Positions 1 to 15,827 of a DNA stretch of 15,827 bases are shown here, in pieces. The notes below the pieces were generated by a model. That model did not search any database. It saw only the letters and a program-made list of their open reading frames with translations, and had not been told where the DNA came from. The translations under genes were made by a program, and so were the position numbers. Position 1 is the stretch's first letter; each line of letters opens with the position of its first letter. Source of the DNA: Promethearchaeota archaeon (GTDB lineage Archaea > Asgardarchaeota > Lokiarchaeia > Sigynarchaeales > SOKP01); the NCBI GenBank assembly GCA_016839425.1, contig JAEOUI010000191.1, forward strand, positions 1 through 15,827, written 5' to 3'.

Positions 1-3000
1 AATGAATTCCCCTACTGTTAAAATCTATCAGATTGTCGTGTATTTTGTGGTAATTTGCCCATTGCATTCTGATTCCGTCTTGACCGTTATTGACAATAAT
101 GCTCTCTAAGATAGTATTATTGTTGCAATAATAGAAGTAGACTCCATGTTGGAAGTTGTAAGAGGCGTTGTTATTGGATAACAAGTTATAGCTCGAATCG
201 TAAATGTAAATTCCGTGTTGAATGTTATAACAAGCTTCGTTTTCTGATATTATATTATTTTCGTTGTAATGGTATAAATATATGCCATTATAGCCATTAC
301 CATTGGCGATATTGTCTTCTAAAAGATTATTATCACAATAATCTTGTAATTCTATCCCATATCGGGTGTTGTTGCAGGCAATATTGTTTGTTATGTTATT
401 ATCAAAACTGTATTGATACAAGTAAATACCAATCGCGTTGTAGCTAACATTATTATGCGAGACTGCAATGTTTTGAGAATTAAACAAATAAATACCGTAG
501 TAATTATGCGTTGCGTCGATTTCAATTACTTCGACTTGATTGCAATAATACAAGGCCACACCAATGGAAGCTTTACTGAGATCAAAGTTGGATACATGAC
601 AATTGCTACAATTTATTAACATGATTTGTCCAGGGTTAAAGAAATATCCCTCTCCAAGACCGTTCATGTTCACGCAATAGTACAATGTTCTGCCGTTAAC
701 CTCATTCGAATTATCAATGTCGTAAGATTGCAGGTTAAATAGATCTGCTCTTATACCCAATCCGGAGTCCCACATCTCGTTATTTAAAACTGCATGATCC
801 GTACCGTAGTAAATGTAAATGGCATATTCCCTATTGCCCGTGAGAAAGTTCCCAAGTATATCGTCATATTGCCCTCCATTCAAGTATATGCCGTATTGAT
901 CGTTGTAATCGACATTATTTCCCATGATCGTTGTATTCAAGCAATAATTAAATGAAATTCCCCTCACTTGATTGTAGCTTATTATATTTCCTTCAATATC
1001 ACTATAATCACAATGATAGAGATACAAGCCCGTGTAATTATTATGACTAAAATCGTTATCAAAAATGTAGACGCGCTCACAATAATTATCAAAATACGCC
1101 CCGTAATCTCCATTATAATAAGCAACATTTGATATTAAATCGTTATCGTCGCTATTATACAAGTAGATTCCCATGTTATCGTTAAAATTAGCGTTATTCT
1201 CCAAGATGGTCAGGTTATGGCTATAACGAATGTAAATGCCGTAATCGTTGTAATACACATCATTGCTAAAGATCGTGTTATTAATGGAATATATCATATA
1301 TATTCCATAGGTGGCTTGATACATTATAGTATTATGTGAAATGTTGTTGAAGTTAGAGCTTTGAATGTATATGTGTTCTTCAAGATTAAATGTAAAGATA
1401 TTTCTCGTCACGATGTTATTATCTGCAGTCATAAAGTAAAGGCCTTCATCTTCGTTATAACTGATGTTATTTCCTAATACGATGCAAAATTCGGAATTAT
1501 ATACGAATATACCTCTCTCAACGGTATTGCTGATGTTATTGTAAAAAAGCTTAGTAAAATCGCAATCGTTATTGACATATATTCCAACATACCCATTATA
1601 TCTCACAAAGTTATAGGAGAATGTATTGTTTTCACAGGCTCCGTTTTCACCGTACATATATATTCCTACATAGCTATTATTAATGTTGTTTCTTAGAACA
1701 TAGTTGTTATTTGTATATTTCTCTATATTAATGCCAAAGTGATTATCGTGTAAAATATTGTCCGAAATGTTGTTGTAATTGCTGTTTGTCTCCAAGATAA
1801 TGCCAACAAATCGATTTAAGTTGGCGTTGTTCCACGAGATCGTATTGTTAGTCGATTCGTATAAATAGATTCCGTAATAATTGTTCTCAACCGTGTTAAA
1901 CGATGCGTTTACTTGAGAACAATACAAGAGATATATGCCAAAAGATGACCATGAAATATTTAGACCCGAAATCATGGAATCGCTACAATTAACTAATATG
2001 ACTTGACCCGCGTTAAAAAAAGAAGTGTCATTTAAACCCGTGTTATTGGTATAATAATAAACGAACTTCCCATTAATGTGGTTTGAAGTATTAATATCGT
2101 GACTGAGTAAGTCTATTAAATCCCCGACCACGCCTACTCCACAATAACGCATTTCATTATCGCGCAATGTAGCGTTAATGCATTTGTAGATCTGGATGCC
2201 ATATCTTGAATTATTTAACACGATGTTTTTTGATACATTAACATTATGTGAAACTTCTAACCAAACTCCATCTCTATTGAAGCTGGCGTTGTTCCCAAAA
2301 ATAATGCTATTTTTTGAATCGTAGAGTAAAAGACCATATAGATCGCTACCACTAATAGTGTTATTCAAAACTTTCGTATTTGCAGAGCTAGAGAGCCAAA
2401 TCCCTCGATCTTGATTGAATGTATCATCACTTACTATATTCTCAGAGACTGTATTATTATTACTCGCCGATAAGAGTATTCCACAATTGGTATTATCGCT
2501 CACTCTATTATTAAGAATCTTATTTTTATGGCTATCGTACATATAAATTCCACGAGATCTAACATGTAAATCGTCGCTGATGATGTTTCCAGAAACCGTG
2601 TTATTATCGCAATAATATAATGCAATACCCTGTAAAGTGTTATCTCTTATTCTATTATTAAGAATCTTATTTCCATTTGAATCCTGCATGTAGATTCCAC
2701 GTTGTTGTGTGTGCGTATTGTCGCTGATGGTGTTTCCAGAAACAGTGATATTAGTGGAACTCCACATCGCTATTCCAAGTTCGGTGCTATCGCTCACTGA
2801 ATTATTGATAATCATATTATTATTGCAACTATCTATGTGAATTCCTCGTGGATGGGTATGCGTGCTATCGCTTATGATATTTTCCTGAATTAGATTGTTA
2901 TTACTAGACGAGGCCATGTAAATTCCGCGTGCTTGGTTGTCACGAATAGTATTGTTTAGAAGAATATTATTTTCAGATCCACTTGTAAAGTAGATTCCAT

Positions 3001-5341
3001 AATTATTGTAATAAATATCATTTTTAATCAGATGACAACTATCGCAATTAGCAAAAGATATCCCCTCATAGGTATTATGGGAAATATTATTGAGTGTAGC
3101 GTTGATAAAATTTGAAACTCTGGCGTCAATTCCTCTATTTAAGTTCCCTTCTATATTATTTTCGTATAAATTCGAATGATCTGAGTCATACATGTAAATT
3201 CCATAATAAGTATTGTGGTTCGCTTTGTTTGAAACGATGTTATTATTGTTTGAATAACGTACAACTATTCCGCGCTGTGCATTATAGCTGGCGTTATTAT
3301 TTATTATTGTATTATTGTCGCAATAATATAATTGAATTCCGTAATAAGTTTGAGTGTGCCCTGCCTCGTTTGAGATGATATCGTTATTGTCCGAATAGCG
3401 CAGATATATTCCATATTGGGTATTATAGCATATCCTATTGTCTATTATAGTAGTATAATTGCAATTATTAAAGTACGCTCCATAATCGTTATAATCAATA
3501 TTACAATTAATTAACCTGTTGCCATCGCAATTATCAAAAAATGCACCGTAATTAGCCGATGTTCCATAATTATTGTTAGTTAAAGTATTATTTATAAGAG
3601 CGTTACCATCGCTATTTTCAATATATATTCCGTGTTGATTAAAAGTAACTGTATTATTGGTTAATAGGTTGTTATTAGCTTGCTCGCCTAAATAAATTCC
3701 TTCTCCTTGATTAAATCTAACCCAATTTTTTGAGAGGACGTTGTTGCTTGCTTGATATAAGGTAATTCCTCGATAATTATTATCGGTCTTAGTTGTTGAT
3801 ACATTTATTCGTTCACAAAATAGCAAGGAAATTCCCGTGGTTGCCCAAGAAGTATCCAATCCTGATAGCTCCGAATCGCTACAATTTACTAAAAACACTT
3901 GACCTGCACTGGAAAAATTTGCTAAATCAAGTCCGATCTCATCAATGTAATAATATACGAATTTTCCATTGACTTGGTTTGAAGTATCGATATCAAAAGC
4001 TTTCAATTGAGTAAGATTACCACTCACGATTAATCCACAATAAAACATTTCATTATTTCTTAATTTATTACTGAAACAATCTTGAAGCTGAATGCCGTAG
4101 CGAGAATTGTTTATAATTTTATTATCAAGAATCTGGCCATAATCTGACTCAATTACGATAATTCCATCTTGGTTAAATGAAACATTATTTCCAATAATCG
4201 AATGATTGTTTGAATTGGAAAGAGAAATACCATATTGAACTTTACCAATAATCGTATTATTAAGCACTCTAGCGCCATCGCATGAGTTGATATAAATTCC
4301 TTTTTGTTGGCTTGTATCGTCTTCTTCTAATAAATTTCTGGAAATTGTGATATTTTCAGAATTATACAAGTACATGTTGTTTTCGCTGTTTATCCGAAAT
4401 GTATTATTTACTACTTGAAAATTATAACACCCCGACGAGTAAATCCCGTATCTGTTACTGACAAACTCGTTTAAATTGACATAAGTATCGTTCGAATTTA
4501 TAACATATAATCCATAATCCCTAATTCCTATCGCGTCATTGTCCATTAAAACAATGTTCCAGCTTTCTGATATATAATACCCGTAAGATCCTAAATTTGA
4601 ACAATAACTTACATTATTATTAATTATACTACAATCAGTACAATTATTCATATATAATCCATATTGATAGAACTGAGTAAAATTATTCGCTGATATGTTA
4701 ATATTATTACAATTCGAAATAAGTGCTCCATACAAGCAATCGTATTTGACTACGGAATCTACAATTTCGATATGATCACAATTTGTAATTGTCAATCCAT
4801 GAATACTGTTGTGGTTTAAACGGTTTCCAATTATAGTAATATTCGCAGTTTTTTGCTCGATCACAATCCCTCGGTAGTTATAGGAGCAATTATTGCCAAT
4901 GAGCTGACCGTTCGAAACATTTACGATCCTGATACCTGCATCGTAATCAAAAAAAACACCTTCTGAAGCGTTAAAAAGGGTGCAATTTCTCACGATGAAA
5001 TGCGCCCTGGAATTATTAATGTAAATGCATGAATTCAAGCCCAATCCGTCAATTGCGATATTTTCAATAATATAAGGACTATCAATAGTGCCGTTTCCGG
5101 TTAACCACGTGACTCCAGCGTCCTTGTAAGATTGCCAAGTGGTGCTTAAATTTTTTTCATCTATAAAAATGGGCGCAATTACTGTATAATCAGAAATCTT
5201 TACTTTGTTAGCGTCTACTTGTAATATATCTTCGCTTTTAGTATCTTCCAAAAACATTGGAAGAACAAAAAATAATCCTATAGCCAAGGTGCTCAACAAA
5301 ATTATCAAGCGACCCCGACTTGTTTTCTCAATTAATTTCAT
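1..5341 (-). CDS. Giant secreted right-handed parallel beta-helix (NosD-like) protein, 3' end outside window
   Basis: Reading from the ATG at 5341-5339 gives 1,780 codons with no stop before the left edge, so the C-terminus is missing. Residues 1-12 are basic (MKLIEKTSRGR) and about 13-30 are hydrophobic, which fits a signal peptide or N-terminal anchor. A short linker leads to the typical entry into such proteins (GNGTIDSPYIIENI, about residues 83-96). The rest is rung after rung of about 22-26 residues with patterns such as N-N-x-I/V-S-x-N and Y-G-I-Y-L, the signature of NosD/pectate-lyase-like parallel beta-helices. Sequons (N-x-S/T) are very frequent and many rungs carry Cys at the same place (YYCDNN, NNCD). 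Three 99-residue modules break the array. No catalytic site is recognisable. Likely a surface or S-layer-associated protein; binding partner unknown. No Shine-Dalgarno precedes the ATG. Confidence 0.9.
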   Translation of the reverse strand, partial: MKLIEKTSRGRLIILLSTLAIGLFFVLPMFLEDTKSEDILQVDANKVKISDYTVIAPIFIDEKNLSTTWQSYKDAGVTWLTGNGTIDSPYIIENIAIDGLGLNSCIYINNSRAHFIVRNCTLFNASEGVFFDYDAGIRIVNVSNGQLIGNNCSYNYRGIVIEQKTANITIIGNRLNHNSIHGLTITNCDHIEIVDSVVKYDCLYGALISNCNNINISANNFTQFYQYGLYMNNCTDCSIINNNVSYCSNLGSYGYYISESWNIVLMDNDAIGIRDYGLYVINSNDTYVNLNEFVSNRYGIYSSGCYNFQVVNNTFRINSENNMYLYNSENITISRNLLEEDDTSQQKGIYINSCDGARVLNNTIIGKVQYGISLSNSNNHSIIGNNVSFNQDGIIVIESDYGQILDNKIINNSRYGIQLQDCFSNKLRNNEMFYCGLIVSGNLTQLKAFDIDTSNQVNGKFVYYYIDEIGLDLANFSSAGQVFLVNCSDSELSGLDTSWATTGISLLFCERINVSTTKTDNNYRGITLYQASNNVLSKNWVRFNQGEGIYLGEQANNNLLTNNTVTFNQHGIYIENSDGNALINNTLTNNNYGTSANYGAFFDNCDGNRLINCNIDYNDYGAYFNNCNYTTIIDNRICYNTQYGIYLRYSDNNDIISNEAGHTQTYYGIQLYYCDNNTIINNNASYNAQRGIVVRYSNNNNIVSNKANHNTYYGIYMYDSDHSNLYENNIEGNLNRGIDARVSNFINATLNNISHNTYEGISFANCDSCHLIKNDIYYNNYGIYFTSGSENNILLNNTIRDNQARGIYMASSSNNNLIQENIISDSTHTHPRGIHIDSCNNNMIINNSVSDSTELGIAMWSSTNITVSGNTISDNTHTQQRGIYMQDSNGNKILNNRIRDNTLQGIALYYCDNNTVSGNIISDDLHVRSRGIYMYDSHKNKILNNRVSDNTNCGILLSASNNNTVSENIVSDDTFNQDRGIWLSSSANTKVLNNTISGSDLYGLLLYDSKNSIIFGNNASFNRDGVWLEVSHNVNVSKNIVLNNSRYGIQIYKCINATLRDNEMRYCGVGVVGDLIDLLSHDINTSNHINGKFVYYYTNNTGLNDTSFFNAGQVILVNCSDSMISGLNISWSSFGIYLLYCSQVNASFNTVENNYYGIYLYESTNNTISWNNANLNRFVGIILETNSNYNNISDNILHDNHFGINIEKYTNNNYVLRNNINNSYVGIYMYGENGACENNTFSYNFVRYNGYVGIYVNNDCDFTKLFYNNISNTVERGIFVYNSEFCIVLGNNISYNEDEGLYFMTADNNIVTRNIFTFNLEEHIYIQSSNFNNISHNTIMYQATYGIYMIYSINNTIFSNDVYYNDYGIYIRYSHNLTILENNANFNDNMGIYLYNSDDNDLISNVAYYNGDYGAYFDNYCERVYIFDNDFSHNNYTGLYLYHCDYSDIEGNIISYNQVRGISFNYCLNTTIMGNNVDYNDQYGIYLNGGQYDDILGNFLTGNREYAIYIYYGTDHAVLNNEMWDSGLGIRADLFNLQSYDIDNSNEVNGRTLYYCVNMNGLGEGYFFNPGQIMLINCSNCHVSNFDLSKASIGVALYYCNQVEVIEIDATHNYYGIYLFNSQNIAVSHNNVSYNAIGIYLYQYSFDNNITNNIACNNTRYGIELQDYCDNNLLEDNIANGNGYNGIYLYHYNENNIISENEACYNIQHGIYIYDSSYNLLSNNNASYNFQHGVYFYYCNNNTILESIIVNNGQDGIRMQWANYHKIHDNLIDFNSRGIH
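542..838 (-). repeat. 99-residue beta-helix module, copy 3
   Basis: Third copy, also 297 bp, from GNREYAIYI to LYYC. It keeps NNEM, DIDNSNEVNGR-x-LYYC, GL, GQIMLINCS and the closing Cys, but has lost the C-G pair after NEM (it reads WDSG). It starts 1,377 bp (459 codons) after copy 2, so the rung block between copies 2 and 3 is 173 codons shorter than the block between copies 1 and 2. Confidence 0.75.
1919..2215 (-). repeat. 99-residue beta-helix module, copy 2
   Basis: Second copy of the module, again exactly 297 bp, from NNSRYGIQI to LLYC. It shares NEMRYCG, DINTSNHINGKFVYYY, GQVILVNCSDS and GIYLLYC with copy 1. It starts 1,896 bp (632 codons) downstream of copy 1 in gene order. Copies 1 and 2 resemble each other more than either resembles copy 3. 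Confidence 0.8.
2357..2944 (-). repeat. Four tandem 147-bp (49-codon) units inside the beta-helix gene
   Basis: Units at 2798-2944, 2651-2797, 2504-2650 and 2357-2503 are in constant phase. Two near-identical DNA blocks recur at a spacing of 147 bp: a 17-base block at 2504 and 2651, and a block beginning tcgctgatg at 2574 and 2721, which encodes S-G-N-x-I-S-D. Each unit encodes one long rung with an insertion before R-G-I (THTHP, THTQQ, LHVRS, TFNQD) and one ordinary 23-residue rung. The two central units are the most alike at DNA level, so this is recent internal duplication rather than only protein-level similarity. Confidence 0.75.
3815..4111 (-). repeat. 99-residue beta-helix module, copy 1 (N-terminal)
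   Basis: Runs from NNSRYGIQL to LLFC. Key positions shared with the other two copies are R-Y-G-I, N-N-E-M-x-Y-C-G, D-I-D-T-S-N-x-V-N-G-K-x-V-Y-Y-Y, G-L, A-G-Q-V-x-L-V-N-C-S and a closing C. The module is exactly 297 bp. In NosD-type archaeal surface proteins similar segments (VNGK-PxYY ... GQ-x-x-LVNCS) recur between rung arrays; I infer a structural insert or cap that separates rung blocks. Confidence 0.8.
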
Positions 5342-5418: not shown

Positions 5419-5538
5419 ACCAATTGGCATAAAAGTGGAATATACAAACTTGACAAAAACTAAATGATGTTTAAATCCAATATTAAATGTCAAGAAAAAT
5501 ATTTTTATTGTTAATATATATTCAATATTACAAATCTC

Positions 5539-5572
5539 GAATCAAGAAATTTAAAAAACTTTAGCTTGATTC
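5539..5572 (-). terminator. Hairpin around the stop codon of the COG3580-type gene
   Basis: GAATCAAG (5539-5546) and CTTGATTC (5565-5572) form a perfect 8-bp inverted repeat with an 18-nt loop. The loop holds the TAA stop at 5561-5563 and, on the minus strand, a run of six T. Archaeal termination usually relies on T-runs, so the T6 inside the structure fits termination or 3'-end processing before the separately promoted beta-helix gene. The long AT-rich loop makes a classical intrinsic terminator less certain. Confidence 0.4.
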
Positions 5573-6613
5573 TATTTTAGTTCCTTTGGAGAGCTCAAGT
5601 TTTCGCTTTTTTCGCTTGATCATTTCAGTAAAGCTTTCTATCCTCGTTAGCAGTCCCGCCTCTCCCGAATGTTCGTCCATGATGATGTCAAGGAATGGTA
5701 TGCCCACAACTTTCATGTCTCGCATAATGAGCTCGGAAATGATGCTGTCTGGACCACAAGCAAAACTAATGAGGAAGATAACGCCATCAATCTCATCCCT
5801 ACCTTCAGTGAGGAAATACCTGATAGCCTGCATGATCTCCTCTTCGTGCCTCCAATAATTTCTGAGTTTCTGGTTTACGATGACCGGTACTTTGAACAGT
5901 TTCTTGGGAAGGTTTTCAAGCGTGATGACTTCGACTCCTTGGTTTTCGAGTTTTTTCTGGAAGTCAAGGTTAATATAGGTATCAAAAACATTGTATCCGT
6001 GCCCTAATAACAAGAAACGAATGTCGTTTTTTTTCGACTTTTTAGGAAGCGTGAAAGGTCTGTCTCGTACGACGAGTCTTAGAGCGTGAACGACCGAAGC
6101 ACCTTTTCTCAAGAATTCGTGGTATTCCTTGAAATACTTTTTTGCTGCAGCGTATGCTTCTAACGAAGTCGCTTGGCTCTTGCCCAGTTGCTTGCCAAGC
6201 TCGATAACCGATGTGGATAATGGGAACTCCTTTACATTTACTTCAAAATTCAAGAGCTTCGGACAATCTGGAAGAATTTTCACAATGTCCGGAAGGGACA
6301 AGAACTTAGGGCAGAAATATGCGTCCTTGACCTCGCTCACATAGCGTGGAACGAAGATGTAATCCAAGTCCGGGTGCTCTTGTATGAGCTGGAGCATATG
6401 ACCGTAATAAATCTTGATGGGAATGCAAAGTTCTCCGAAACCGTGTCGAACGCCTTCCTCTACAATCTTCTTGTTTGTGGGCGTACTTAACACGATTTCG
6501 ACATTGAGCTTTTCCAAGAGTTGTTTCCAAAACGGAAAATAACGATAGTAATGAAGTGCTCTTGGAATACCAACTTTTGGCTTTGGTAGTTGTTTTTTTT
6601 CGAACGCTTCCAG
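5561..6613 (-). CDS. COG3580/DUF2229-type protein (2-hydroxyacyl-CoA dehydratase/activase-related), probable CTG start
   Basis: 350 residues from CTG at 6613. The N-terminus carries the family's usual opening, KVGIPRALHYYRYFPFW at residues 13-29. Then follow CIPIKIYYGH (Cys63), VPRYVS and FCPKFLSLPD (Cys101), GHGYN at 204-208, FACGPDS (Cys286) and DEHSGEAGLLTRIESF at about 313-328. The three cysteines lie in conserved motifs and are plausible [4Fe-4S] ligands, as in 2-hydroxyacyl-CoA dehydratase subunits; this is inference. It stands alone, without the ATPase (HgdC/BcrA-type) domain often fused in bacteria. The first conventional start is TTG at 6517, but that would delete the GIPRAL motif. 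In frame there is a TAA at 6637-6635 and no ATG, GTG or TTG between. CTG follows GAGGAG by 8 nt. Substrate unknown. Confidence 0.8.
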   Translation of the reverse strand: MEAFEKKQLPKPKVGIPRALHYYRYFPFWKQLLEKLNVEIVLSTPTNKKIVEEGVRHGFGELCIPIKIYYGHMLQLIQEHPDLDYIFVPRYVSEVKDAYFCPKFLSLPDIVKILPDCPKLLNFEVNVKEFPLSTSVIELGKQLGKSQATSLEAYAAAKKYFKEYHEFLRKGASVVHALRLVVRDRPFTLPKKSKKNDIRFLLLGHGYNVFDTYINLDFQKKLENQGVEVITLENLPKKLFKVPVIVNQKLRNYWRHEEEIMQAIRYFLTEGRDEIDGVIFLISFACGPDSIISELIMRDMKVVGIPFLDIIMDEHSGEAGLLTRIESFTEMIKRKKRKLELSKGTKIESS

Positions 6614-6621
6614 GGCAAGTT

Positions 6622-6627
6622 CTCCTC
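6622..6627 (-). promoter_or_regulatory. Shine-Dalgarno GAGGAG that supports a CTG start
   Basis: GAGGAG lies 8 nt upstream of the CTG at 6613-6611, a normal archaeal spacing. The TTG at 6517 has no comparable site. A TTG 3 nt after the motif is in another frame and too close. This site is the main argument for the CTG start of the COG3580-type gene. Confidence 0.55.
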
Positions 6628-6685
6628 GTATCTTTTAAAAATTTTTTGATTAATAAGTGCTAATAAAATGAGTAATAAATAAAGT

Positions 6686-8377
6686 TTAAAGTTTGGGGTC
6701 GTCATAAACGACAAGTTCCTTGATTCGTTCCATCAATAAATCCGTAAGCCTCTTGAGCTCTTCGTAATCGGGTATTGGCTTGTCGAAATATTTGGTGTGC
6801 TCCGTAAAAAGGGGACCCATCTTGAAAATACTCATTTTCCCAAAAGTAAACATTTTAGCGTGTTTTGGAAAAGTATTTTCGGTGCCAGTAATGCCAATTG
6901 GAATAATGGGTACTTTTGCTTCGATCGCCAAGCGCACGGCTCCCGTGTGTCCTTCCACCACTTCGGGGCCTCCTACCGTGGTTCCTTCGGGGTAAACCAT
7001 AACAAGCTCGCCTTCTTTCAAGCGTTCTTTAGCAAACCAATAAGAACCCTCGTCATGCTCGCCTCTCATGAGGGGGAACGCCAAGTGCGTCCTGGTCCAC
7101 GCGTTTACGATAGGCATCTGGAATAAAGACTCTTTTGCCATTTGATATAGCCGTCGTCCCTCTTGTTGGCAAGCGACAGCATTAATAATAACATCCCATT
7201 CAGAATTGTGATTCGAACACACGACTGCTGCTCCTGTTTTTGGGAGATATTTATCGTAATCAATTCTTTTGTATGGCATGAACGAGTCGCACATGATTCT
7301 CTGGATAAAATTTCCGTTGAACTGCCAGCACATTAATTCAAATTGTCTCCTGACGCCAAATACTTCGGCTGCTTTAACGAGTGACATCCAACTATCATCA
7401 ATTAATTGAAGGAAACTCTTCCAATAATGCTTTACGAGTTGCATAATGCCCTCTTTTTTATCTTCGGAATTAATCGGAGAGCCTATGGAAAGCCCTTTCT
7501 GTTGCTTTTTAACTTTCTTGGCAAATTCAGTGACGGAATAAGCATATTCGTGCTTTCCTTCTAACAAGTCGAGAACTTCTTGTCGTAACTCATCTGACAA
7601 TTTTCGTATTAGTTCATAAGTAATTTCGTTTGGATCTTGTTGGTTATAAAATATTGGTTTGCCAACACGAACGGTTACCTTTGCGGGTTTAACCCACATA
7701 CTTCCTTTTGGAAGGACTTTTCTCGACCCAATTACCGCTGCGGGTACAATAGGCACACCGCATTCGATGGCCAATCTCACTGCACCGGTTTTGAATTGAC
7801 CGATGGTCCCGTCTATATTTCGAGTAGCTTCGGGGAAAATTCCGATCCACTGACCACTTTCAAGGATCTTTTTTGATTTTTCCCAGGTTTCTTCCAAGTC
7901 GTCCTTATTATGCTCATAAGCGCCTAAATTTGTAAATAAAGTCTTTACAAGAGGCGTGCGGAAATTATCCCGCTTGCTCATCCACTGAATGCGGACATTC
8001 TCGGTTGCAGAACCCACAAAGAACGGGTCGAAGTGACTCTCGTGGTTTGAGATGAGGATACCGCCCTTACCGGCGTTGTTTCCAAATTGTGGAAAAATGT
8101 GCCCTTCTACATTTTGCACATCAATTCTCCATATAAACCTCGTAGCAGCGTGCACATAAATGTTTGCGCCCCACCACTGAAGTTCTTGTTCCTGTTCTTC
8201 GAAATTCATGAGTTTAATGAATTTCCTATAAAGAGCGTTTAATGGATCAATAGGGTTGTACTTGAGAATTTGATTTACGATCTCATTTGATGGTTTTTCA
8301 AAATGCAACTCATCGGCGCTGGGCTTTTCTTCCTGCTCCCATTGTAAGAGGCTCTTGCTTTTTTTTGTATCTTCCAT
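6686..8377 (-). CDS. Tandem lysophospholipid acyltransferase (two PlsC/LPLAT domains)
   Basis: 563 residues with two complete PlsC-type domains. Domain 1, about 100-245, has the catalytic H-x4-D (NHESHFD, His112-Asp117), FPEATR at 181-186 and VPIVPAAV. Domain 2, about 380-525, has NHNSEWD (His390-Asp395), PLMRGE (motif II Arg), YPEGTT at 462-467 and VPIIPIGI. Domain 1 has EHNK where motif II normally has Arg, so substrate binding may differ. The N-terminal 30 residues are charged and low in complexity; a Lys-rich linker of about 135 residues joins the domains. The family transfers an acyl chain from acyl-CoA or acyl-ACP to lysophosphatidate or a related acceptor at the membrane. ATG at 8377 follows GTGAT by 5 nt. 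The next gene begins 72 bp downstream, so the two may be co-transcribed. Unexpected for an archaeon with ether lipids; true substrate unknown. Confidence 0.88.
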   Translation of the reverse strand: MEDTKKSKSLLQWEQEEKPSADELHFEKPSNEIVNQILKYNPIDPLNALYRKFIKLMNFEEQEQELQWWGANIYVHAATRFIWRIDVQNVEGHIFPQFGNNAGKGGILISNHESHFDPFFVGSATENVRIQWMSKRDNFRTPLVKTLFTNLGAYEHNKDDLEETWEKSKKILESGQWIGIFPEATRNIDGTIGQFKTGAVRLAIECGVPIVPAAVIGSRKVLPKGSMWVKPAKVTVRVGKPIFYNQQDPNEITYELIRKLSDELRQEVLDLLEGKHEYAYSVTEFAKKVKKQQKGLSIGSPINSEDKKEGIMQLVKHYWKSFLQLIDDSWMSLVKAAEVFGVRRQFELMCWQFNGNFIQRIMCDSFMPYKRIDYDKYLPKTGAAVVCSNHNSEWDVIINAVACQQEGRRLYQMAKESLFQMPIVNAWTRTHLAFPLMRGEHDEGSYWFAKERLKEGELVMVYPEGTTVGGPEVVEGHTGAVRLAIEAKVPIIPIGITGTENTFPKHAKMFTFGKMSIFKMGPLFTEHTKYFDKPIPDYEELKRLTDLLMERIKELVVYDDPKL

Positions 8378-8440
8378 TTCTTATCACTTCTTGAGTTTAT
8401 TAAAAACATGGAAAAATATTAATAAAAACTAGTTTAATTG

Positions 8441-8446
8441 TATAAA
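8441..8446 (-). promoter_or_regulatory. Possible TATA box of the acyltransferase gene
   Basis: TTTATA on the minus strand, 64 bp upstream of the ATG at 8377, would give a leader of about 35-40 nt that includes GTGAT (8383-8387). The 235-bp gap 8378-8612 holds nothing else I can name, apart from a T6 run in the minus sense (8558-8563) about 50 bp past the MFS stop that could end the upstream transcript. Confidence 0.3.
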
Positions 8447-8612
8447 CATTCGTTTGATAAAAGTAGTAGTTCGATAATGAATTTAAATTTTTACACCCCT
8501 ATTTGATTTTAATTGAAAGATTTTACTATAGGACTAGAATAAATGGAAATTTCAAACAAAAAATCCAAAATTTACACGATTCCTATTTTAAAAGAGTATA
8601 TATTTGTTTTTA

Positions 8613-9791
8613 TTAAAACTTGATAAAATATAGAGGAACCAAGGATAAAAGTTGGAATAGCCCTGCTATTAATATAATCATTTCTCCCGAGATAAAACCA
8701 AATAAAAAAACTCCAAAAGGCGCAAAAATAATTTTGGATAAAATAGTTGCTGAAGCCATTAGTTGGAAGAATAATACTTTTCCGCCAGAAAGCTCAATCA
8801 TAGATGCTAACAATGCTATTAAAAAGAAACCGGAAACAAGCTGAACAATAGACATTAGAATAAAAAATAGAATAATTCCCGAAAGAGGGGCAATAGTTGT
8901 CAAAATACCACTTACAAGTGTCGTGAATATCAAAAGTTTCTTTTTATCTAATCTTTTTGAATACTTTCCAGCAATCAAGAGACTAATTGCATCGAATACT
9001 ATAAAACTTATCATTATGGTTGGAAAAAGTGCTTTAGGTTCCGTTGAAACCGTTCCAAGCTTCTCTATTGCCCAAGGTTCTAAAACCCATTCGTAAAGAT
9101 TAATTCCGTAGACTAAAAAGAGGAAAGCACATATTTTTACGATATGACTATAATTGACCTTTTTTTGTTCTTGAGCGACGGAATCAGATGCAATATTTGA
9201 CGACGAATCGCTGTTTTTTAAAATTAAAATTATTGGAACGAAACAGACTATGGATATGGTACCAACGATGAATAAAGCATTCCAAGAGTTCAAATTTGTT
9301 GGTCTTATTATGAAGAAATATATGTTCGAAACGATAGCACCAATCATTCCTCCTATTTGCATGTAAAACGCATTTTTCTTCCTGATATTATCAGTGCTAG
9401 ATCTTTGTATGATGATCTTATCGATAATAACATCCATGAAGGCTACAAATAAGAAATTTAATCCAAGAAAAACGCTAAACACGACTAAGAAGTTCAAATT
9501 AAAAATAAACAAGGCAAATGATACTACTGCCCCTGAGCTAGCGATAATAAAGACCTTTCTTTCGGTAGAAAAAGGGGTTTTCTTTCCGTCTTTGTTGATA
9601 TAAATGGAAAAAAGTGGTTTAGCAAGCATGAAAGAATAAGATGTGTACAGCACAATTCCAAGGTCGGTACCGTTAATTAAGAAAATTTCGCTAAAGTAAA
9701 TGGGTAAAAAAGCGTTAATGTATACATACATCATCTGGGCAATAAAATAAACCGTAAAAAATACGATTTGATTTCTATTATGAAGTTTCAT
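8613..9791 (-). CDS. Major facilitator superfamily transporter
   Basis: 392 residues, almost all hydrophobic, with about 12 predicted membrane helices in two halves joined by a polar loop at about 192-213 (rich in Ser, Asp and Gln). A short basic loop after helix 2 (NKDGKK, 66-71) sits where MFS motif A is found. Acidic residues D120 and D124 lie in or next to helix 4, and YEWVLEPW is at 233-240 in helix 7. The layout, with charged residues in helix 4 and a G-rich helix 5, recalls the BT1/AmpG-like part of the superfamily, but that subgrouping is weak and no substrate can be given. ATG at 9791 has no Shine-Dalgarno. It has its own TATA-like box and lies in the gap between two gene groups, so it is probably transcribed alone. 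Confidence 0.85.
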   Translation of the reverse strand: MKLHNRNQIVFFTVYFIAQMMYVYINAFLPIYFSEIFLINGTDLGIVLYTSYSFMLAKPLFSIYINKDGKKTPFSTERKVFIIASSGAVVSFALFIFNLNFLVVFSVFLGLNFLFVAFMDVIIDKIIIQRSSTDNIRKKNAFYMQIGGMIGAIVSNIYFFIIRPTNLNSWNALFIVGTISIVCFVPIILILKNSDSSSNIASDSVAQEQKKVNYSHIVKICAFLFLVYGINLYEWVLEPWAIEKLGTVSTEPKALFPTIMISFIVFDAISLLIAGKYSKRLDKKKLLIFTTLVSGILTTIAPLSGIILFFILMSIVQLVSGFFLIALLASMIELSGGKVLFFQLMASATILSKIIFAPFGVFLFGFISGEMIILIAGLFQLLSLVPLYFIKF

Positions 9792-9850
9792 ATGATATAA
9801 TACTTATTTTTTTTAATGTAAATTAGGGAACAAATTATTATTCAATTCGT

Positions 9851-9860
9851 TTTATATAAA
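9851..9860 (-). promoter_or_regulatory. Likely TATA box of the MFS gene
   Basis: TTTATATAAA lies 60 bp upstream of the ATG at 9791. With the usual 25 bp to the start point the leader would be about 30-35 nt. It is the best TATA match in the window's intergenic DNA. The 121-bp gap 9792-9912 contains no ORF. Confidence 0.45.
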
Positions 9861-9912
9861 TAAAAAATTTATGTTGAGATTAATGTGAAAACAAAGATTA
9901 TTTTAGGGAATT

Positions 9913-10383
9913 TTATGTTGAAAAAAACATTAAAAGACCAATTAAAATCATAAATGTTCCAATGAAAACACAAGTGAGGTTTGCAGTCAAATCATCATAG
10001 GGGATTTGGGCGATTCGAATTTTTTTATTAGGTAATATGGGCACCCCCGAGCTGTTCATTGCGTCCAAAAAAATATGGCTTAAAAAAATTACATAGATCA
10101 AAAAGAAAACATATATTCCTAAGAATGGAGATAGGAGGGAAAAAGGTGCTCCCGTAGAAAGAGCAAGTAAAATTAATAAGGGAGATAGCGGTGAATGGGT
10201 CAAGAATTTTCTTTCGTGCTTTAAATACATCTCGTGGTCCAGCCAATCGTTTATTTTACCTGCTAGATATGTCACCATTATTATAAAAAAAAATAAAAAT
10301 CCTAAAGTTTCTACCAAGTTAAAAGTGGCAGTTAAAAGAGATCCTAATCCAAGTGAGAATGAAATATGGGCATATTGTTTCAT
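9913..10383 (-). CDS. DUF1286/YdjM-like membrane protein (putative metal-dependent hydrolase family)
   Basis: 156 residues with about four membrane helices (roughly 10-40, 66-80, 86-106, 135-154). Conserved polar motifs lie at the membrane edges: AHIS near the start, DWLDHE (46-51), HERKFLTHSPL (56-66), HIFLDAMNSSGVPI (103-116) and KKIRIAQIPYDD. The TH-S and H-x3-D motifs are those of the YdjM/DUF1286 group, annotated as membrane-bound metal-dependent hydrolases; activity has not been shown for most members. The ATG at 10383 is 3 bp after the stop of the preceding gene, so it is the last gene of the operon. A gggcg stretch upstream is only a weak ribosome site, and translation may rely on coupling. 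Confidence 0.8.
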   Translation of the reverse strand: MKQYAHISFSLGLGSLLTATFNLVETLGFLFFFIIMVTYLAGKINDWLDHEMYLKHERKFLTHSPLSPLLILLALSTGAPFSLLSPFLGIYVFFLIYVIFLSHIFLDAMNSSGVPILPNKKIRIAQIPYDDLTANLTCVFIGTFMILIGLLMFFST

Positions 10384-10386
10384 AAT

Positions 10387-10725
10387 TCAATTCGCCCCTA
10401 ATCTTTCTTCGATTCTTTTTAATCGAACGCTTGCTTGATTGAGGAGGTCATCCTTTTCCTTGATTTCGTTTTTAAGTTGCTCTTCTATCGCATTACACTT
10501 CGTGTTGTTCGGTGTTTGGTATTGAAGCACCTCGTTGACATAAAAAGGGAATAAATCGCAAATTTCCTTGTATAGACTTGCAAGTACTTCAAGTGCTTGC
10601 TTTTTGGCATTTCTAAGTTCAATATCTCCGGAACTTAGCTGATTTAAAGCGTTCATCACTTTTGTAATATATTCCTCTTTGAAAACCGTACGTTCTAGAA
10701 TTTCCTTGAATAAATCGTCTTTCAA
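10387..10725 (-). CDS. Small helical/coiled-coil protein of unknown function, TTG start
   Basis: 112 residues, no membrane segment and no family I recognise. Predicted helical throughout; residues about 80-110 (NAIEEQLKNEIKEKDD onward) form a likely coiled coil with heptad-like Leu/Ile. The TTG at 10725 is the first possible start after an in-frame TGA nine bases upstream, and GGTGA (10732-10736) stands 6 nt before it. The next Met is at residue 24. It lies 35 bp after the 1,280-residue protein and 3 bp before the DUF1286-like gene. An accessory or adaptor subunit of the membrane ATPase-like protein is possible but unproven; that protein also ends in a coiled-coil stretch. Confidence 0.75.
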   Translation of the reverse strand: MKDDLFKEILERTVFKEEYITKVMNALNQLSSGDIELRNAKKQALEVLASLYKEICDLFPFYVNEVLQYQTPNNTKCNAIEEQLKNEIKEKDDLLNQASVRLKRIEERLGAN

Positions 10726-10731
10726 CTCCTT

Positions 10732-10736
10732 TCACC
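10732..10736 (-). promoter_or_regulatory. Shine-Dalgarno GGTGA that fixes a TTG start
   Basis: GGTGA is 6 nt upstream of the TTG at 10725 and matches the conserved 3' end of archaeal 16S rRNA. The GGAG directly next to the TTG is too close to act. Together with the in-frame TGA just upstream it makes TTG the most likely start. Confidence 0.55.
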
Positions 10737-10760
10737 TTTTTAAAAATTGCTTTTGTGATT

Positions 10761-13700
10761 TTATAAAAACTCTTGAATGCTAATTTGTAATTTTTTAATA
10801 TTTTCGTAAATTGAATTAATCTCTTCATTCTTTTGCTCGATCTTGACTTCAAGCAAACTACATTGATTTAAAATATCGATTGCCAATAGTGCCCAATCAA
10901 TGTTTAAAATAACGCCTAAATATTCAAACAAGGATTCCAAGTCTTGTTCGTTTAGGGAGTTGTCGTTATTCGTTTCACCAATAAATTTCATAAAATTAAG
11001 GATTGTATTTTTTTCGTGTTGGAGGGCATCCTTGAAAGATTTTGCCTTGATCGACCGATATATCGTAAAAACGCCCTGCATTAAAAGCGAAAGCGCGTTC
11101 TTGGCGCGGGTAACATACACGTTACGCTTTCTTTTTTCTTCTAGGTCTTGCTCGTTTTCATGAGGAAAAATAATATCAGGTTCCACATCATTCGAATCAA
11201 CTCTAATCATTTCTGGGACTTCTAATAATGCGGACTCTTTCGCTTCGAAATAATCCTTCAGGGCTCGATCATATTTCTCTCCTACGCTATACGAGGATCG
11301 CAGGGATTCGGTACCACTCGCTTCTAAAGGATGTTGTTCTATTAGATAATCGTGCTGAACCAATATTGAAAACAAATCATCTCTGATCTTGTTTATCTTG
11401 TGTTTAAATTTTCTTTTTTTCACGATTTTAGACGCTTTTGGATATATGAACTTTTTAAGTTCTTCTTTGATTTTTTTTTCGCTCAAGTTCCCTATCTTAT
11501 CAATCGTTTTGAGTGCGTTGAGAAAGGTAACTATTTCTTCAACGAAACCCGAATATATTTCGAAATCTTTCTCAAATAATGTCTTATTTGCTTGCCTTGC
11601 GATGTCTTTTTCTACTAATTCTAAGTCATATCCTTGATTTTTCATGAATTTCGCAATTTTTTCTTGTTTCATTTCTCTTAAATCTACTAATTCGTCTACC
11701 TCTAGCTGGACTGGAAAAGGTTGATCGATATCCGAACGCTTGACAACCATTTCCATGGGATTCATTGTTGATAAATAGTTGATCTGGAATGTTTCGTTCC
11801 GACTCGAGCTATAAATCCCGGATCCGTGAAGTTTTCTACACTTCATTGAATAACCAATATAGGACGCATCGCATTTATTAAAAATTCGAAAAGTTACGAT
11901 GTTCTTGAAAAAAGAAAACGCGTGTTCGTGTAAATTTCTTGCTTTATCAGCCGATGCAATCGTTCCAAAACCAAATTTGAAAAGGGGAGCCAAAAATTTA
12001 ACCATCTTGCTATAATCTCCTATTTTTTTTAAATAATTATCTTCAAAAATTACATCAATGTGAGGGATTACTAATATCTTTTCTCTAATATTTTGTCCTA
12101 TCAAGCTCATTGATTCAGGATGTGCAGCAGCGTGTAGAATCTTAGCAATTATGACGAATGACGCAAAAATTCTTTTTTTAACATCGTTCAAGATGGATAA
12201 ATCGATAATAACCGTTGAGTCGTCATTAATAAAATCTAAAGCTGTAATTCCTCCTGCTTTTTGTTCAGATCTAACGAAAAAAGCCATATCTTGCCCGGCT
12301 AAGTCCTCAAAAAGTGTCCTTAAGGAATCTGTTGCGGGATTGGTATTCCATTCAGGATTTGTTTCAATATCTAATTTTATAGAGTTGATGTCAAAATCTT
12401 TTTCAAGTTTCGATATGGACCTCTTGAACGCTTCCATAATTCTCTCGTCTTTATGGAAGGATAGCGAGTAAGCGTCCGCAACTAGATCCAAATATAAGGG
12501 ATTATCCGTGTCATATGGTAAGTCTGATCTTATCAAATCGATGGTATAGGTTTTACCGAGTTTAAAAAAAGCCAAATTTTCCTCGAATCTTGTATTTTTA
12601 AAATAACTCAGTAATTTTGACCATTCTCCCGTGTGATCAAATACGATGGAAGGTATGCCCCCTTTAACGAGCTGGATAACCGTCTTCATCAATGCTTTTT
12701 CCTTGCTACCGTTAAATCCGTTAAGAAATAAAAGATTGTTCGCTTGATCCAATGTGAATCCCGCATCTACTTCGGACTCTAAGATTTCGGTATTTATGGT
12801 CTTCCCTAAAACGATGAAATTTTCGAGATATAATGGTGTATTGAACTCCGATGCAATTTTTACTTCGAGGCCTTTTTTTAATTGGGGGAAAATATCGATC
12901 AAGTTTGTTAAAGTCTTGCCCTGTTGGATTATATAGAATAAGTTAGAACCGTTAGAACGAAAAAACTTATTTTTCAAGAGCGTCAACATGTACGCGTGAA
13001 TTACCCGATCTCGATTGGCTAATGTTAATCTATAATTTGGAAGACTTGTTTGATACGATTTATTTAATTCTCTTGTTTTCTCATTCAGAGAAATCTCTAC
13101 ATCAAGAGCGCTTCTCACGCTCATTTCAGTGACGTGTTTATAACTACTTACCGATAAAGTAAAAATACACCTCCAAATTCCCCCTCTCATGTTCAAGAAA
13201 GTTTCACGGTCCATTAGAGTTTTTAACGAGAATAAACTCGCTTGAGTCTTTTTATTCAATAAATTCCGTGTTTCAGCTTCAAAACTCTGATACAACATTG
13301 GTGCCACGGTTCCTGTATATGTAAACGGAATTCTTAATGGAATTATTGACTGAAAAAAACTATCTGGACGAGATAATGGCCTGTTCTGAAATCCAAAAAA
13401 CGGTGGATTGGCGCGAGCTATATTGAAGAATTTCGTGCCAATGAGTAGTTTTTTATTCACTAAGGAATAAATAGTACTTGGCGTTCCAGATAACCAATAA
13501 AAAAAAACATCTTGGAACGGATCAATTATGTTTATAGTGGAATCTTGCGAATTTTGACCCGAGAACTTGAAAAAAATTGACTTAAAAAAAACGATAGTAT
13601 GAATAACGCAGATTAGCATTCCAATCGTAATTGATAAATGCAATCCCAATCCGAGCTTCCAAACAAATAATGCGAAGATCAAAAAAACTACGGTTAAATA

Positions 13701-14603
13701 AATACATTTCAAACAAAGTTCCACAATGGTTTGTCCTCGTTCTCGTTTTTTATCATTAGCTGGAGGTATATCCGTCCCAATAAAAAATGTTCTCAGTGCG
13801 TTAATAAGCTCCAGTTCATTCATTTCACTAATTTTAAAATGATGGAAATTCGCTTTAAATCCTGATTTGGCAGTTGACACATATTCGTCTAGCGTATCTA
13901 TTAAATATCTTAGCCTGCGAGAGTTTAAAACGCCCTTTAAATCGTAATAAAAACAGAAATAAATCGAGGTTTTCATCGAAAAAAGAGATTTTGATACTGA
14001 AAAATTCTTTGAAATTGTCGTGCCTTTTACGGGATAGTCGATTAAAGGCGCTTGAACGACCTGATATGTAAAAGGAACATTTGAAGAATTGAGATATTTA
14101 AAAAATCCGTTCATATTTGGATTTACATTTTCGGGAACAACAGCAATCTTAAAGATTTTTAATCCCACGGAGATCAAATCTTTTTGATTAGTATAAAAAA
14201 CGATATCTGATCGCCCTTTTAATTGCCAAAACCTATAATGCTTGAAAGGATCGAGCTTTGAAACAGAACGTAGCTTAAAAGTTGAAAAGAAAGCAAATTT
14301 TACCATCTCGTTTTTAAAAGCCAAGATAAATAGAACAGAGATGATGGAGATAGATGTTAATGTTAACAATAAATCTTCGAATTCTAACCAAAAAAAAACC
14401 GCTATAGTCGTCAATACTCCAATTGTTAAACCCACTTTCTTATAGACGGTCTTTAGATTAACATCAATGAAGTTAGGACTAGTTTTCCAAATATTATAAT
14501 AATTTGTTGGTTCTTCTACTTCATGTTCTCCTTTTTTCTTGCCACTAAAATTATTCTTAGAATCAAAGGAATCTTTTCGAGTTCCAATTATTTTATAAGT
14601 CAA
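10761..14603 (-). CDS. Large membrane protein with duplicated N-terminal domain and degenerate HerA/VirB4-like ATPase core
   Basis: 1,280 residues, TTG start overlapping the previous stop (TTGA), with AAGGAGG 7 nt upstream. Two TM hairpins at about 57-96 and 297-341 are each followed by a related soluble domain. The shared order is DPF (118/361), aromatic-W, a Y-x-x-x-N-x-K-D/K-L-I block, P-F-T-Y (177/426), A-P (185/434) and SLFS-M/L-K (206/456), an offset of about 243-250 residues. Residues about 595-960 follow the HerA/FtsK/VirB4 fold: FLNGFNGSKEKA (627-638) at the Walker A place, IVFDHTGEW (653-661), TVIIDLS (797-803), ILVIPHIDVIF (843-853) at the Walker B place, and GTIASADKARNL (880-891). 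The P-loop Lys-Thr and the Walker B Glu are absent, so ATP hydrolysis is doubtful. Residues 1070-1120 may be a winged helix; 1250-1280 look like a coiled coil. The TM-pair plus domain resembles VirB3-VirB4 fusions; that comparison is inference. Confidence 0.7.
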   Translation of the reverse strand: MTYKIIGTRKDSFDSKNNFSGKKKGEHEVEEPTNYYNIWKTSPNFIDVNLKTVYKKVGLTIGVLTTIAVFFWLEFEDLLLTLTSISIISVLFILAFKNEMVKFAFFSTFKLRSVSKLDPFKHYRFWQLKGRSDIVFYTNQKDLISVGLKIFKIAVVPENVNPNMNGFFKYLNSSNVPFTYQVVQAPLIDYPVKGTTISKNFSVSKSLFSMKTSIYFCFYYDLKGVLNSRRLRYLIDTLDEYVSTAKSGFKANFHHFKISEMNELELINALRTFFIGTDIPPANDKKRERGQTIVELCLKCIYLTVVFLIFALFVWKLGLGLHLSITIGMLICVIHTIVFFKSIFFKFSGQNSQDSTINIIDPFQDVFFYWLSGTPSTIYSLVNKKLLIGTKFFNIARANPPFFGFQNRPLSRPDSFFQSIIPLRIPFTYTGTVAPMLYQSFEAETRNLLNKKTQASLFSLKTLMDRETFLNMRGGIWRCIFTLSVSSYKHVTEMSVRSALDVEISLNEKTRELNKSYQTSLPNYRLTLANRDRVIHAYMLTLLKNKFFRSNGSNLFYIIQQGKTLTNLIDIFPQLKKGLEVKIASEFNTPLYLENFIVLGKTINTEILESEVDAGFTLDQANNLLFLNGFNGSKEKALMKTVIQLVKGGIPSIVFDHTGEWSKLLSYFKNTRFEENLAFFKLGKTYTIDLIRSDLPYDTDNPLYLDLVADAYSLSFHKDERIMEAFKRSISKLEKDFDINSIKLDIETNPEWNTNPATDSLRTLFEDLAGQDMAFFVRSEQKAGGITALDFINDDSTVIIDLSILNDVKKRIFASFVIIAKILHAAAHPESMSLIGQNIREKILVIPHIDVIFEDNYLKKIGDYSKMVKFLAPLFKFGFGTIASADKARNLHEHAFSFFKNIVTFRIFNKCDASYIGYSMKCRKLHGSGIYSSSRNETFQINYLSTMNPMEMVVKRSDIDQPFPVQLEVDELVDLREMKQEKIAKFMKNQGYDLELVEKDIARQANKTLFEKDFEIYSGFVEEIVTFLNALKTIDKIGNLSEKKIKEELKKFIYPKASKIVKKRKFKHKINKIRDDLFSILVQHDYLIEQHPLEASGTESLRSSYSVGEKYDRALKDYFEAKESALLEVPEMIRVDSNDVEPDIIFPHENEQDLEEKRKRNVYVTRAKNALSLLMQGVFTIYRSIKAKSFKDALQHEKNTILNFMKFIGETNNDNSLNEQDLESLFEYLGVILNIDWALLAIDILNQCSLLEVKIEQKNEEINSIYENIKKLQISIQEFL

Positions 14604-15496
14604 GCGTGCCCCTCCTTAAGATACATCAACCAATAAATAAGAAAAGTGAAAACTGCAAGAATAAAAAACAACACGCTCATTCCATTTAAGGCTCCACTGA
14701 TTTCAGGATGTAAAACTATTTGAAATAAAAGAAGTACGAAAAATAAGAGGGAAACAATTGAAGTCCCTAAAAGAAAATATCCAGGAATTTCGGAAGTACT
14801 TCGTTTATATAAAGAGTTAGAGGAAATTTTTTCACTTGATTTAATTCTCTGCTTGTTAGAGTTAATTAGATTTTCCTCGTATGTTTTTAGTTGATACAAA
14901 GTTTCGAAATTTTTTTTATCATAACATTGATCGAGAGATTTTTGTATCCTCAATTCTTTTTGTCTGATTTCTCTGAGGAGGAGGTTTTTAACGACATCAA
15001 TTCTTTCTTTTTTGAAAGAGAATAAAGTAGGTTTATTCTGAGATTGAGTCAAAGATTCAAGCAGGAGCAAGCTTTCTGCCTCTTTCCCTTGAAACAACTC
15101 GCTTCTTGAGTTTAAAAAATTCGGAGCTTCTATCTTTCGCAAATCGTAATATAAACTTACCAATTCTGGGAGGTTATTTATTGGTATTGTATCGTTATTT
15201 TTTTCGAGGACTTGTTCGAATTTCTTTAAATTATCTATCATGATCTCGTTAAAAATTCCCTTTCCAAGCCTAATTTCTATGAGTTCGTTTATTTTTCTCA
15301 TATACATCCACATTTTTATCCTTCGTTCCTCGATTAGGGGTAAAAAACCCATTCTAATTCCCATTTCGTTTAAATGGTTCTTTATCAATCCCATAAATAC
15401 AATGGATAATTTTTTGTTGTTGTTTGTCTCCAAGCATAATTGCACCAAGGTTTTTAACTTTGCATCAAGGAGGTTATAATTTTTTACTACGCTCAC
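14600..15496 (-). CDS. 298-residue protein with C-terminal transmembrane hairpin, unknown function
   Basis: Not a family I recognise. Residues 1-230 are mostly helical and polar, with charged stretches suggestive of helical bundles or coiled coil at about 160-225. Two strong membrane helices, about 239-262 and 271-293, end in a short basic tail, so the large domain is tail-anchored and faces one side of the membrane. The GTG at 15496 overlaps the previous stop (GTGA), with GAGGAG (15503-15508) 6 nt upstream. Its own stop overlaps the TTG of the 1,280-residue gene by 4 bp. The tight coupling suggests a fixed-ratio partner of that membrane protein. Confidence 0.8.
   Translation of the reverse strand: MSVVKNYNLLDAKLKTLVQLCLETNNNKKLSIVFMGLIKNHLNEMGIRMGFLPLIEERRIKMWMYMRKINELIEIRLGKGIFNEIMIDNLKKFEQVLEKNNDTIPINNLPELVSLYYDLRKIEAPNFLNSRSELFQGKEAESLLLLESLTQSQNKPTLFSFKKERIDVVKNLLLREIRQKELRIQKSLDQCYDKKNFETLYQLKTYEENLINSNKQRIKSSEKISSNSLYKRSTSEIPGYFLLGTSIVSLLFFVLLLFQIVLHPEISGALNGMSVLFFILAVFTFLIYWLMYLKEGHA
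14611..14617 (-). promoter_or_regulatory. Shine-Dalgarno AAGGAGG for the 1,280-residue protein
   Basis: AAGGAGG ends 7 nt before the TTG at 14603. It supports TTG as the true start and lies within the 3' end of the preceding gene, so the two genes are probably translationally coupled by the TTGA overlap. Confidence 0.6.
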
Positions 15497-15827
15497 GATT
15501 TACTCCTCTTCCTGTTAAATTTGTTTAAAACACTCGTTGCAAGGTCGTTTTTTTGATTCGTATTTATCAATATTTCTTCTTCAGCGATGAATTTGTCGAT
15601 TGGCAGGTATTTTTGATGTTCTGTGATTGTTTTACATATCATTTCTTCTTTTGTTTCTCTATCTGCTTCAAATCTTTTTATTGTTTGGATCGTAAAAACA
15701 GTGTAAGAGAACATCGCAATAAATGCCATTATTTGAAAACCATATCCAATTCCTATAGTATAGGAAAACATAATATTCGTTTCTAAGTCTACAACTTGAA
15801 GGAACGGAAAAAATAAATCGTCCGAAA
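15493..15827 (-). CDS. C-terminal part of a membrane protein, 5' end outside window
   Basis: The frame ending at the TGA 15495-15493 stays open to the right edge without a stop. Its first visible residues are SDDLFFPFLQVVDLETNI, then the Met at 15771. That Met has no ribosome site upstream, so the gene probably starts beyond the window. One clear membrane helix (GFQIMAFIAMFSYTVFTI) is followed by a charged helical tail of about 65 residues that ends in Lys/Arg. No family recognised. The stop overlaps the GTG start of the next gene, so it belongs to the same operon. Confidence 0.65.
   Translation of the reverse strand, partial: SDDLFFPFLQVVDLETNIMFSYTIGIGYGFQIMAFIAMFSYTVFTIQTIKRFEADRETKEEMICKTITEHQKYLPIDKFIAEEEILINTNQKNDLATSVLNKFNRKRSKS
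15503..15508 (-). promoter_or_regulatory. Shine-Dalgarno GAGGAG for the GTG-started 298-residue protein
   Basis: GAGGAG is 6 nt upstream of the GTG at 15496-15494 and inside the end of the preceding gene. It supports GTG over any later Met. Confidence 0.6.

Follow-up and report, generated by a model that had tools for sequence, protein, structure and literature searches.

The window analysed here, positions 1 to 15,827 of the forward strand of contig JAEOUI010000191.1 (assembly GCA_016839425.1, Promethearchaeota archaeon), carries on its minus strand, at 10761..14603 (-), a gene encoding a 1280 amino acid (aa) membrane pseudo-ATPase of the HerA/VirB4 kind, a protein that shares with its whole family the loss of the motor motifs. 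The open reading frame (ORF), coordinates and strand given in an initial annotation of this DNA proved correct, as judged from the ORF list and from the closest relative, a protein 73% identical over residues 1-1277 and encoded in the locus L001 (contig JAFGGO010000085.1, from a Candidatus Lokiarchaeota metagenome-assembled genome, MAG). The start codon is a TTG that overlaps, in the sequence TTGA, with the stop codon of the preceding gene, and a GGAGG-type ribosome site lies ahead of it. Comparison of the window and L001 genes gave a nonsynonymous divergence (dN) of 0.17 and a synonymous divergence (dS) of about 2.1, a saturated value, and the resulting ratio of ~0.08 indicated that the window gene is under purifying selection.

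Degenerate motor core and duplicated front end

The core of the protein (residues ~588-981, 11661..12842, -) was delimited by modelling, fold comparison and profile match. The predicted structure of residues 550-1174 (mean predicted local distance difference test, pLDDT, 79; predicted template modelling score, pTM, 0.72) showed a fold of the HerA/VirB4/TrwB type, and model and profile match together placed the core among the RecA-like folds of the FtsK-HerA superfamily, VirB4/HerA type, confirming the fold that the initial annotation had proposed for residues 590-960. The C-terminal region (residues 1001-1280, 10764..11603, -) is predicted to be mostly helical as far as it was modelled, that is, to residue 1174.

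A homologue search yielded 74 proteins, the window's included, of which 70 were aligned and four short partial ones omitted. The Walker A motif GxxxxGK[ST] was found in none of these 70 (0/70). At the P-loop the window protein reads NGFNGSKEK (residues 628-636, 12696..12722, -), as had been noted at the outset. N628 was kept in 64 aligned sequences and G629 in 69; the Walker Lys position, residue 634, was Arg in 63 and Lys in 4, among them the window protein, whose NGFNGSKEK lysine occupies it; and residue 635, Ser/Thr in the Walker motif, was Glu or Asp in 58/70. The degenerate Walker B stretch LVIPHIDV (residues 844-851, 12051..12074, -) was located by alignment with intact relatives. HIDV does lie at 848-851, as first reported, but its reading as Walker B could be refined: the acidic pair of the intact relatives aligns to P847-H848. 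P847, at the column of their Walker B acid, is invariant (n=70), and the column of D850, three residues further on, holds D or E in 69/70. Also invariant in the 70 sequences is F655-D656-x-x-G659, downstream of the P-loop and in the position of a motif that characterises HerA proteins.

A tree of 103 cores, built in one FastTree run in which long branches are possible and with the intact cores being a sample, separated one clan of 83 lacking Walker A (support 0.949) from 20 intact cores. The Walker Lys column held Arg in 74/83 and Lys in 2/83 of the clan, versus Lys in 20/20 intact cores; the Walker B acid column was D/E in 39/83 versus 20/20, and the catalytic Glu column was E in 10/83 versus 19/20. 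Retention of a basic residue in 76/83 cores, together with the invariant F655-D656-x-x-G659 and the acidic D850 column, could be read as the mark of a non-canonical nucleotide-driven motor, in which Arg (Lys in the window's clade) stands in for the Walker Lys and some unusual nucleoside triphosphate hydrolysis persists. We regard such a motor as improbable, given that the P-loop glycines are mostly gone, that residue 635 is predominantly acidic and that the Walker B acid and the catalytic Glu have been lost to the extent given above.

Nor is the loss mere decay of the window copy, since no intact P-loop was found inside the aligned family, which answers the question of P-loop conservation in homologues raised by the initial annotation. 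One copy does carry an internal stop (a TAA in L015, G116:C23; an open copy lies in the same genome at C22), but a decaying gene or a sequencing artefact is already refuted as a general explanation by the long open frames of most strong matches of the Loki-type profile, by the excess of dS over dN and by motif loss of the same kind throughout one clan.

The front half had been described initially as an internal duplication with an offset of about 245 residues, and this was borne out. The motifs DPF (residues 118/361), PFTY (177/426), AP (185/434) and SLFS.K (206/456) recur in order at offsets of 243-250 residues, and the two halves matched each other profile to profile at E 9.3e-20 (226 columns, 20% identity; a pairwise value with no database search behind it). 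Taken separately, the soluble lobes matched at E 3.5e-16 and the transmembrane (TM) hairpins at E 3.3e-5, and the local alignment of the soluble parts 101-289 and 341-560 scored 97, against a mean of 34.5 (sd 5.9, max 63) in 500 shuffles. Hairpin 1 spans residues 50-95 (14319..14456, -; model helices 50-75 and 78-95, hydropathy 57-75 and 78-96) and precedes lobe 1 (residues ~114-280, 13764..14264, -); hairpin 2 spans residues 289-339 (13587..13739, -; model helices 289-316 and 321-339, hydropathy 296-314 and 329-347) and precedes lobe 2 (residues ~357-580, 12864..13535, -). Both lobes resemble the VirB4 N-terminal domain (NTD) according to model, structure match and repeat motifs. The model of residues 117-580 superposed on residues 14-404 of 7o41_A with 326 residues aligned; the two lobes thus jointly span one VirB4 NTD, which makes the window protein a single VirB4 equivalent whose two lobes are related and gives no support to the doubled VirB3-VirB4 suggested initially. 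The description as a membrane pseudo-ATPase of the HerA/VirB4 kind with an internally duplicated front end holds.

The best Pfam match of the window protein on its own, MgtE at 0.12, is meaningless; its only phmmer matches among PDB sequences, triosephosphate isomerases (best 0.027), were taken as spurious; the A1 profile retrieved nothing useful from PDB sequences (two matches at 1.6); and PADLOC at E 1e-3 gave 0 matches for the window pseudo-ATPase, its upstream partner F1 and the homologues L048 and L039.

Breadth of the family and its neighbours

Named homologues came from MAGs labelled Lokiarchaeota, Promethearchaeota, Hodarchaeota, Hermodarchaeota and Thorarchaeota, and the combination of two TM hairpins, two VirB4-NTD lobes and a RecA-like core that lacks both Walker A and the catalytic Glu, as seen in sequence or model, belongs to one clan across the Asgard phylum. 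A Loki-type profile matched 77 of 227 genomes of the phylum at E <= 0.001, including weak matches in G054, G086 and G163, which are intact relatives outside the family. With a compact-core profile, 285/392 genomes matched at E <= 0.001, ordinary HerA-like proteins included, and 86 at E <= 1e-28, all of them in the phylum set by hand count; the best match outside that set (3.4e-24) was an intact protein. At most 2 (Loki-type) or 3 (compact-core) candidates were scored per genome, so non-matching genomes are no proven negatives, and the fetched loci cover part of the 86 strong compact-core genomes. Alignment-based protein searches gave at least 15 and at least 5 proteins and say little about breadth.

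Three main layouts were distinguished: (i) one ~1280-aa chain, the Loki type; (ii) split genes, in which a TM-plus-lobe protein (F4, ~200-360 aa) adjoins a core of ~480-535 aa; and (iii) a ~785-aa chain that combines TM segment, one lobe and core and follows a 198-aa TM protein. The F4 family gave matches of 2e-20 and 6e-19 to the two halves of the window front end, and the N-terminus of the 785-aa class matched F4 at 4e-13 and the second window half at 7e-5. The 198-aa TM protein matched single-lobe F4 at E 3.6e-7 and gave no match to the window lobes (0.0093, 0.045). Further lineages have pseudo-ATPases of other lengths, ~720 to 1420 aa. A 1104-aa protein of L129 (2105-5416, +) with a degenerate P-loop, VGEPKARR, is possibly a further branch of the clan.

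Genes in the fetched stretches were called mechanically as ORFs of 70 aa or more and do not represent annotations. Upstream of the pseudo-ATPase gene in the window lie F1 (14600..15496, -; 298 aa, with a C-terminal TM hairpin by hydropathy in a relative), found in 17/21 Loki-type loci, and the 3' part of F2, cut by the window edge (15493..15825, -; 245 aa in a full-length relative, for which hydropathy indicates 4 TM helices), found in 16/21. Downstream lies F3 (10387..10725, -; 112 aa, coiled-coil-like by eye), found in 12/21. L001 preserves the window order for F2, F1, the pseudo-ATPase, F3 and the next four genes. A helix-hairpin-helix TM protein occurs in 16/21 Loki-type loci and a Hel308-like helicase in 13/21. 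F1, F2, F9, F11 and F16 (the last three from the operons described below) gave no convincing match to lobes or core, the best being F1 at 0.0036 over 21 columns.

The initial annotation had envisaged an active HerA/VirB4 paralogue past the right-hand edge, at which the window DNA stops. The 10 kb of L001 on the matching side contain the full F2, the helix-hairpin-helix TM protein, a leucine-rich-repeat protein (by eye), three small ORFs and a divergent Hel308-like helicase, and no such paralogue; nor did the compact-core profile find an intact HerA/VirB4-type ORF beside any family member among the called ORFs of the fetched stretches. A related possibility is that the protein acts as regulatory partner of an intact paralogue encoded elsewhere, and other DUF87/HerA genes over the cut-off were indeed found in 11/11 genomes searched. 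We consider this improbable, given the lack of an adjoining intact gene in the fetched stretches and the presence in the Loki-type front end of both VirB4 lobes in one chain.

Three other window genes were noted. A 156-aa membrane protein (9913..10383, -) with a YdjM match just under the cut-off has the same placement beside the pseudo-ATPase in L001; a 563-aa protein with two acyltransferase stretches (6686..8377, -; PF01553 E 3.1e-52) is conserved in L001; and an open-ended 1780-aa ORF (2..5341, -) with repeated Asn motifs is, by eye, probably a parallel beta-helix surface protein.

Linked recombination genes and a possible role

In layout (iii) the recurring gene order is Rad51-like, zinc ribbon, F9, XPD-like helicase, 198-aa TM protein, F11, pseudo-ATPase, Hel308-like helicase, F16 (TM), RadB-like, TM protein and a weak second Rad51-like gene, with an XPG-like gene additionally in 3/23 loci. 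These 23 loci were picked for having F9, F11 or XPD-like genes, so class percentages for those genes are circular. Neighbours were named from representatives with Pfam and NCBIfam: the recombinases matched Rad51 (2.6e-24), RadA (8.7e-100 in a split locus, over that model's cut-off) and RadB (2.6e-7), the helicases DEAD_2 plus Helicase_C_2 with rad3 (6.3e-48) and Hel308 (1.5e-82), and the nuclease XPG_I (3.7e-20). Because the rad3, Hel308 and RadB scores lie under the curated cut-offs, we speak of relatives and not of orthologues. A loose SWIM-like CxC..CxH pattern was present in 36/36 Hel308-like ORFs of >650 aa and a loose four-Cys pattern in 23/23 XPD-like ORFs of >600 aa. The P-loops of both helicases were intact wherever the ORF covers them, leaving the VirB4-like protein as the sole dead ATPase among the linked ones. 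In PADLOC the linked helicases matched helicase and type IV CRISPR DinG models, which we read as general helicase kinship. Genomes with a listed linked Rad51-like gene (e.g. G181, G219, G222, G079, G076) have a better RadA match elsewhere, indicating that the linked gene is a paralogue. A 2025 paper reports that Heimdall-, Njord- and Gerdarchaea and, with less robust support, Lokiarchaea have a second clade of RadA (PMC12722695). In L036, L037, L038 and L041 the Rad51-like and TM-lobe genes are separated by a small TM protein and a peptidase of M28 type that has TM helices (PF04389 in L036; relatives by profile). L062 carries, ~2.5 kb upstream of its split genes for the pseudo-ATPase, a repeated short unit (89-1198, -) that is CRISPR-like by eye.

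Within the fetched stretches, at least one of the five recombination families was found in 49/74 family loci, which represent 73 genomes (L064 and L066 hold part of the core, P-loop not included): Hel308-like in 39, Rad51 in 26, XPD-like in 24, RadB-like in 17 and XPG-like in 6. None of the 22 intact HerA/VirB4 loci had them (0/22), with a Fisher p of 6e-9 that is too small, since the families were chosen after seeing the loci and related genomes are not independent. When the comparison was limited to stretches of <=9.1 kb, because lengths differ, linkage was 11/22 versus 0/21. Judging placement from handle numbers, 14/22 intact loci lie outside the phylum set and 8/22 inside, the latter also without recombination genes (0/8).

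We tentatively propose, at somewhat less than even confidence, that the protein is a membrane-anchored VirB4-type scaffold which has lost ATP hydrolysis and which forms part, as a ring for docking and guiding, of a DNA-transfer machine resembling Ced. The dead VirB4 would assemble as a ring beneath the membrane, as VirB4, CedB and CedD rings are thought to, around a membrane pore built from small operon partners; the ring would dock and guide DNA, which the linked active helicases (Hel308-like with its SWIM-like finger, and XPD-like) may move and process before it is handed on to the dedicated Rad51/RadB-like recombinases. Transport is the least certain step, and the nearest alternative is a ring that tethers homologous recombination or repair to the membrane, anchoring helicases and Rad51 paralogues with no DNA transport. 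The linkage counts fit such a tether as well, as does the lack of a recognised channel or pilin among the scanned partners; the complete VirB4-type NTD with two TM hairpins, as in known DNA-import ATPases (PMC11868833), and the several TM partners that recur in the operons speak against it, and we judge it possible but rather unlikely. A fuller version of the transfer proposal, which we hold to be unlikely in its entirety, is that a single loss of the VirB4 motor took place in the ancestor of the family and that the ring became the membrane scaffold of an Asgard DNA-exchange machine derived from the VirB4/Ced lineage, with operon-encoded helicases taking over the pulling and passing the DNA directly to a dedicated Rad51/RadA paralogue. 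The archaeal group nearest eukaryotes would then possess a mating-and-recombination apparatus.

Several results weigh against the transfer proposal. No linked recombination gene was found in the fetched stretch of 25/74 family loci, and in Loki-type loci, among them those of the window's relatives, the Hel308-like helicase is the sole linked family (Rad51-, XPD-, RadB- and XPG-like, 0/21). Representatives of the multi-TM partners were scanned and matched no informative family, and neither a pilin (VirB2/CedA1) nor a channel of the VirB6/CedA kind could be recognised. Profiles gave no match between the lobes and the CedD NTD, or between the core of the 785-aa class and one HerA (0.022), and no NCBIfam model matched the window protein or the 784-aa homologue L048 at E 1e-3. 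Lastly, according to a review (PMC12857230), Gram-positive systems have VirB4 homologues in which Walker A and B are both retained, and at least one intact VirB4 homologue, ConE, was reported without ATPase activity; motif loss is therefore not the sole route to a silent VirB4.

Comparison with known systems

VirB4, CedB and CedD are generally regarded as ATPases powering DNA transfer. The Asgard clade keeps the VirB4 architecture without the motor motifs, in many loci adjoining intact helicases and dedicated RadA-type recombinases. If DNA is indeed transferred, ideas about the purpose of VirB4 rings would change, and DNA exchange and recombination in the group nearest eukaryotes could be tested gene by gene. 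Among the matches listed from a search of the open-access PMC literature, which contains neither preprints nor subscription papers, no title or abstract opening described an Asgard VirB4/HerA pseudo-ATPase.

With VirB4/TrwK of type IV secretion systems (T4SS) the window protein shares the two-lobed NTD and the RecA-like core; it differs in lacking Walker A and catalytic Glu and in having its own TM hairpin ahead of each lobe. Pfam and NCBIfam named no VirB3, VirB6, VirB8, VirB10 or other T4SS part in the neighbours scanned, among which unnamed TM partners could be diverged versions. HerA (DUF87), which shares the RecA-like core (the G001 homologue matched DUF87 at 3.6e-4, under the cut-off), is soluble and active, unlike the window protein, and no NurA was named among the scanned neighbours.

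The Ted locus of Thermoproteales is likewise an archaeal VirB4-type DNA-transfer locus with DNA-processing genes (HerA-like, Rad50), and Ted and Ced are described as homologous to conjugation machines (PMC9905601); a VirB2-like pilin and a VirB6-like channel are recognised in Ted, unlike in the Asgard loci scanned. Similar in design are CedB and CedD of Sulfolobales: as PMC11868833 reports, both are required for DNA import, each has a TM domain, a partial VirB4 NTD and a HerA-type ATPase domain, and jointly they cover a VirB4 NTD. Five of eight compact family members matched the CedD model NF053655 (best L039, 5.4e-12, 45 bits), none of the tested family proteins reached its cut-off of 600 bits, and the window protein and L048 had no match. 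In L117, L118, L120 and L126, from genomes outside the phylum set, we noted intact CedD-like ATPases with a TM-like start (137-167 bits, under the cut-off). The CedD of L119 (708 bits) keeps GSTGSGKS, unlike the Asgard family, and Ced distributes its lobes over two chains with an ATPase domain in each, whereas in the Loki-type protein a single chain carries both lobes and one dead motor. Fold, lobes and membrane anchoring are thus known from VirB4-type proteins; the family-wide dead motor, the single-chain layout with two hairpins and the recombination operon are new.

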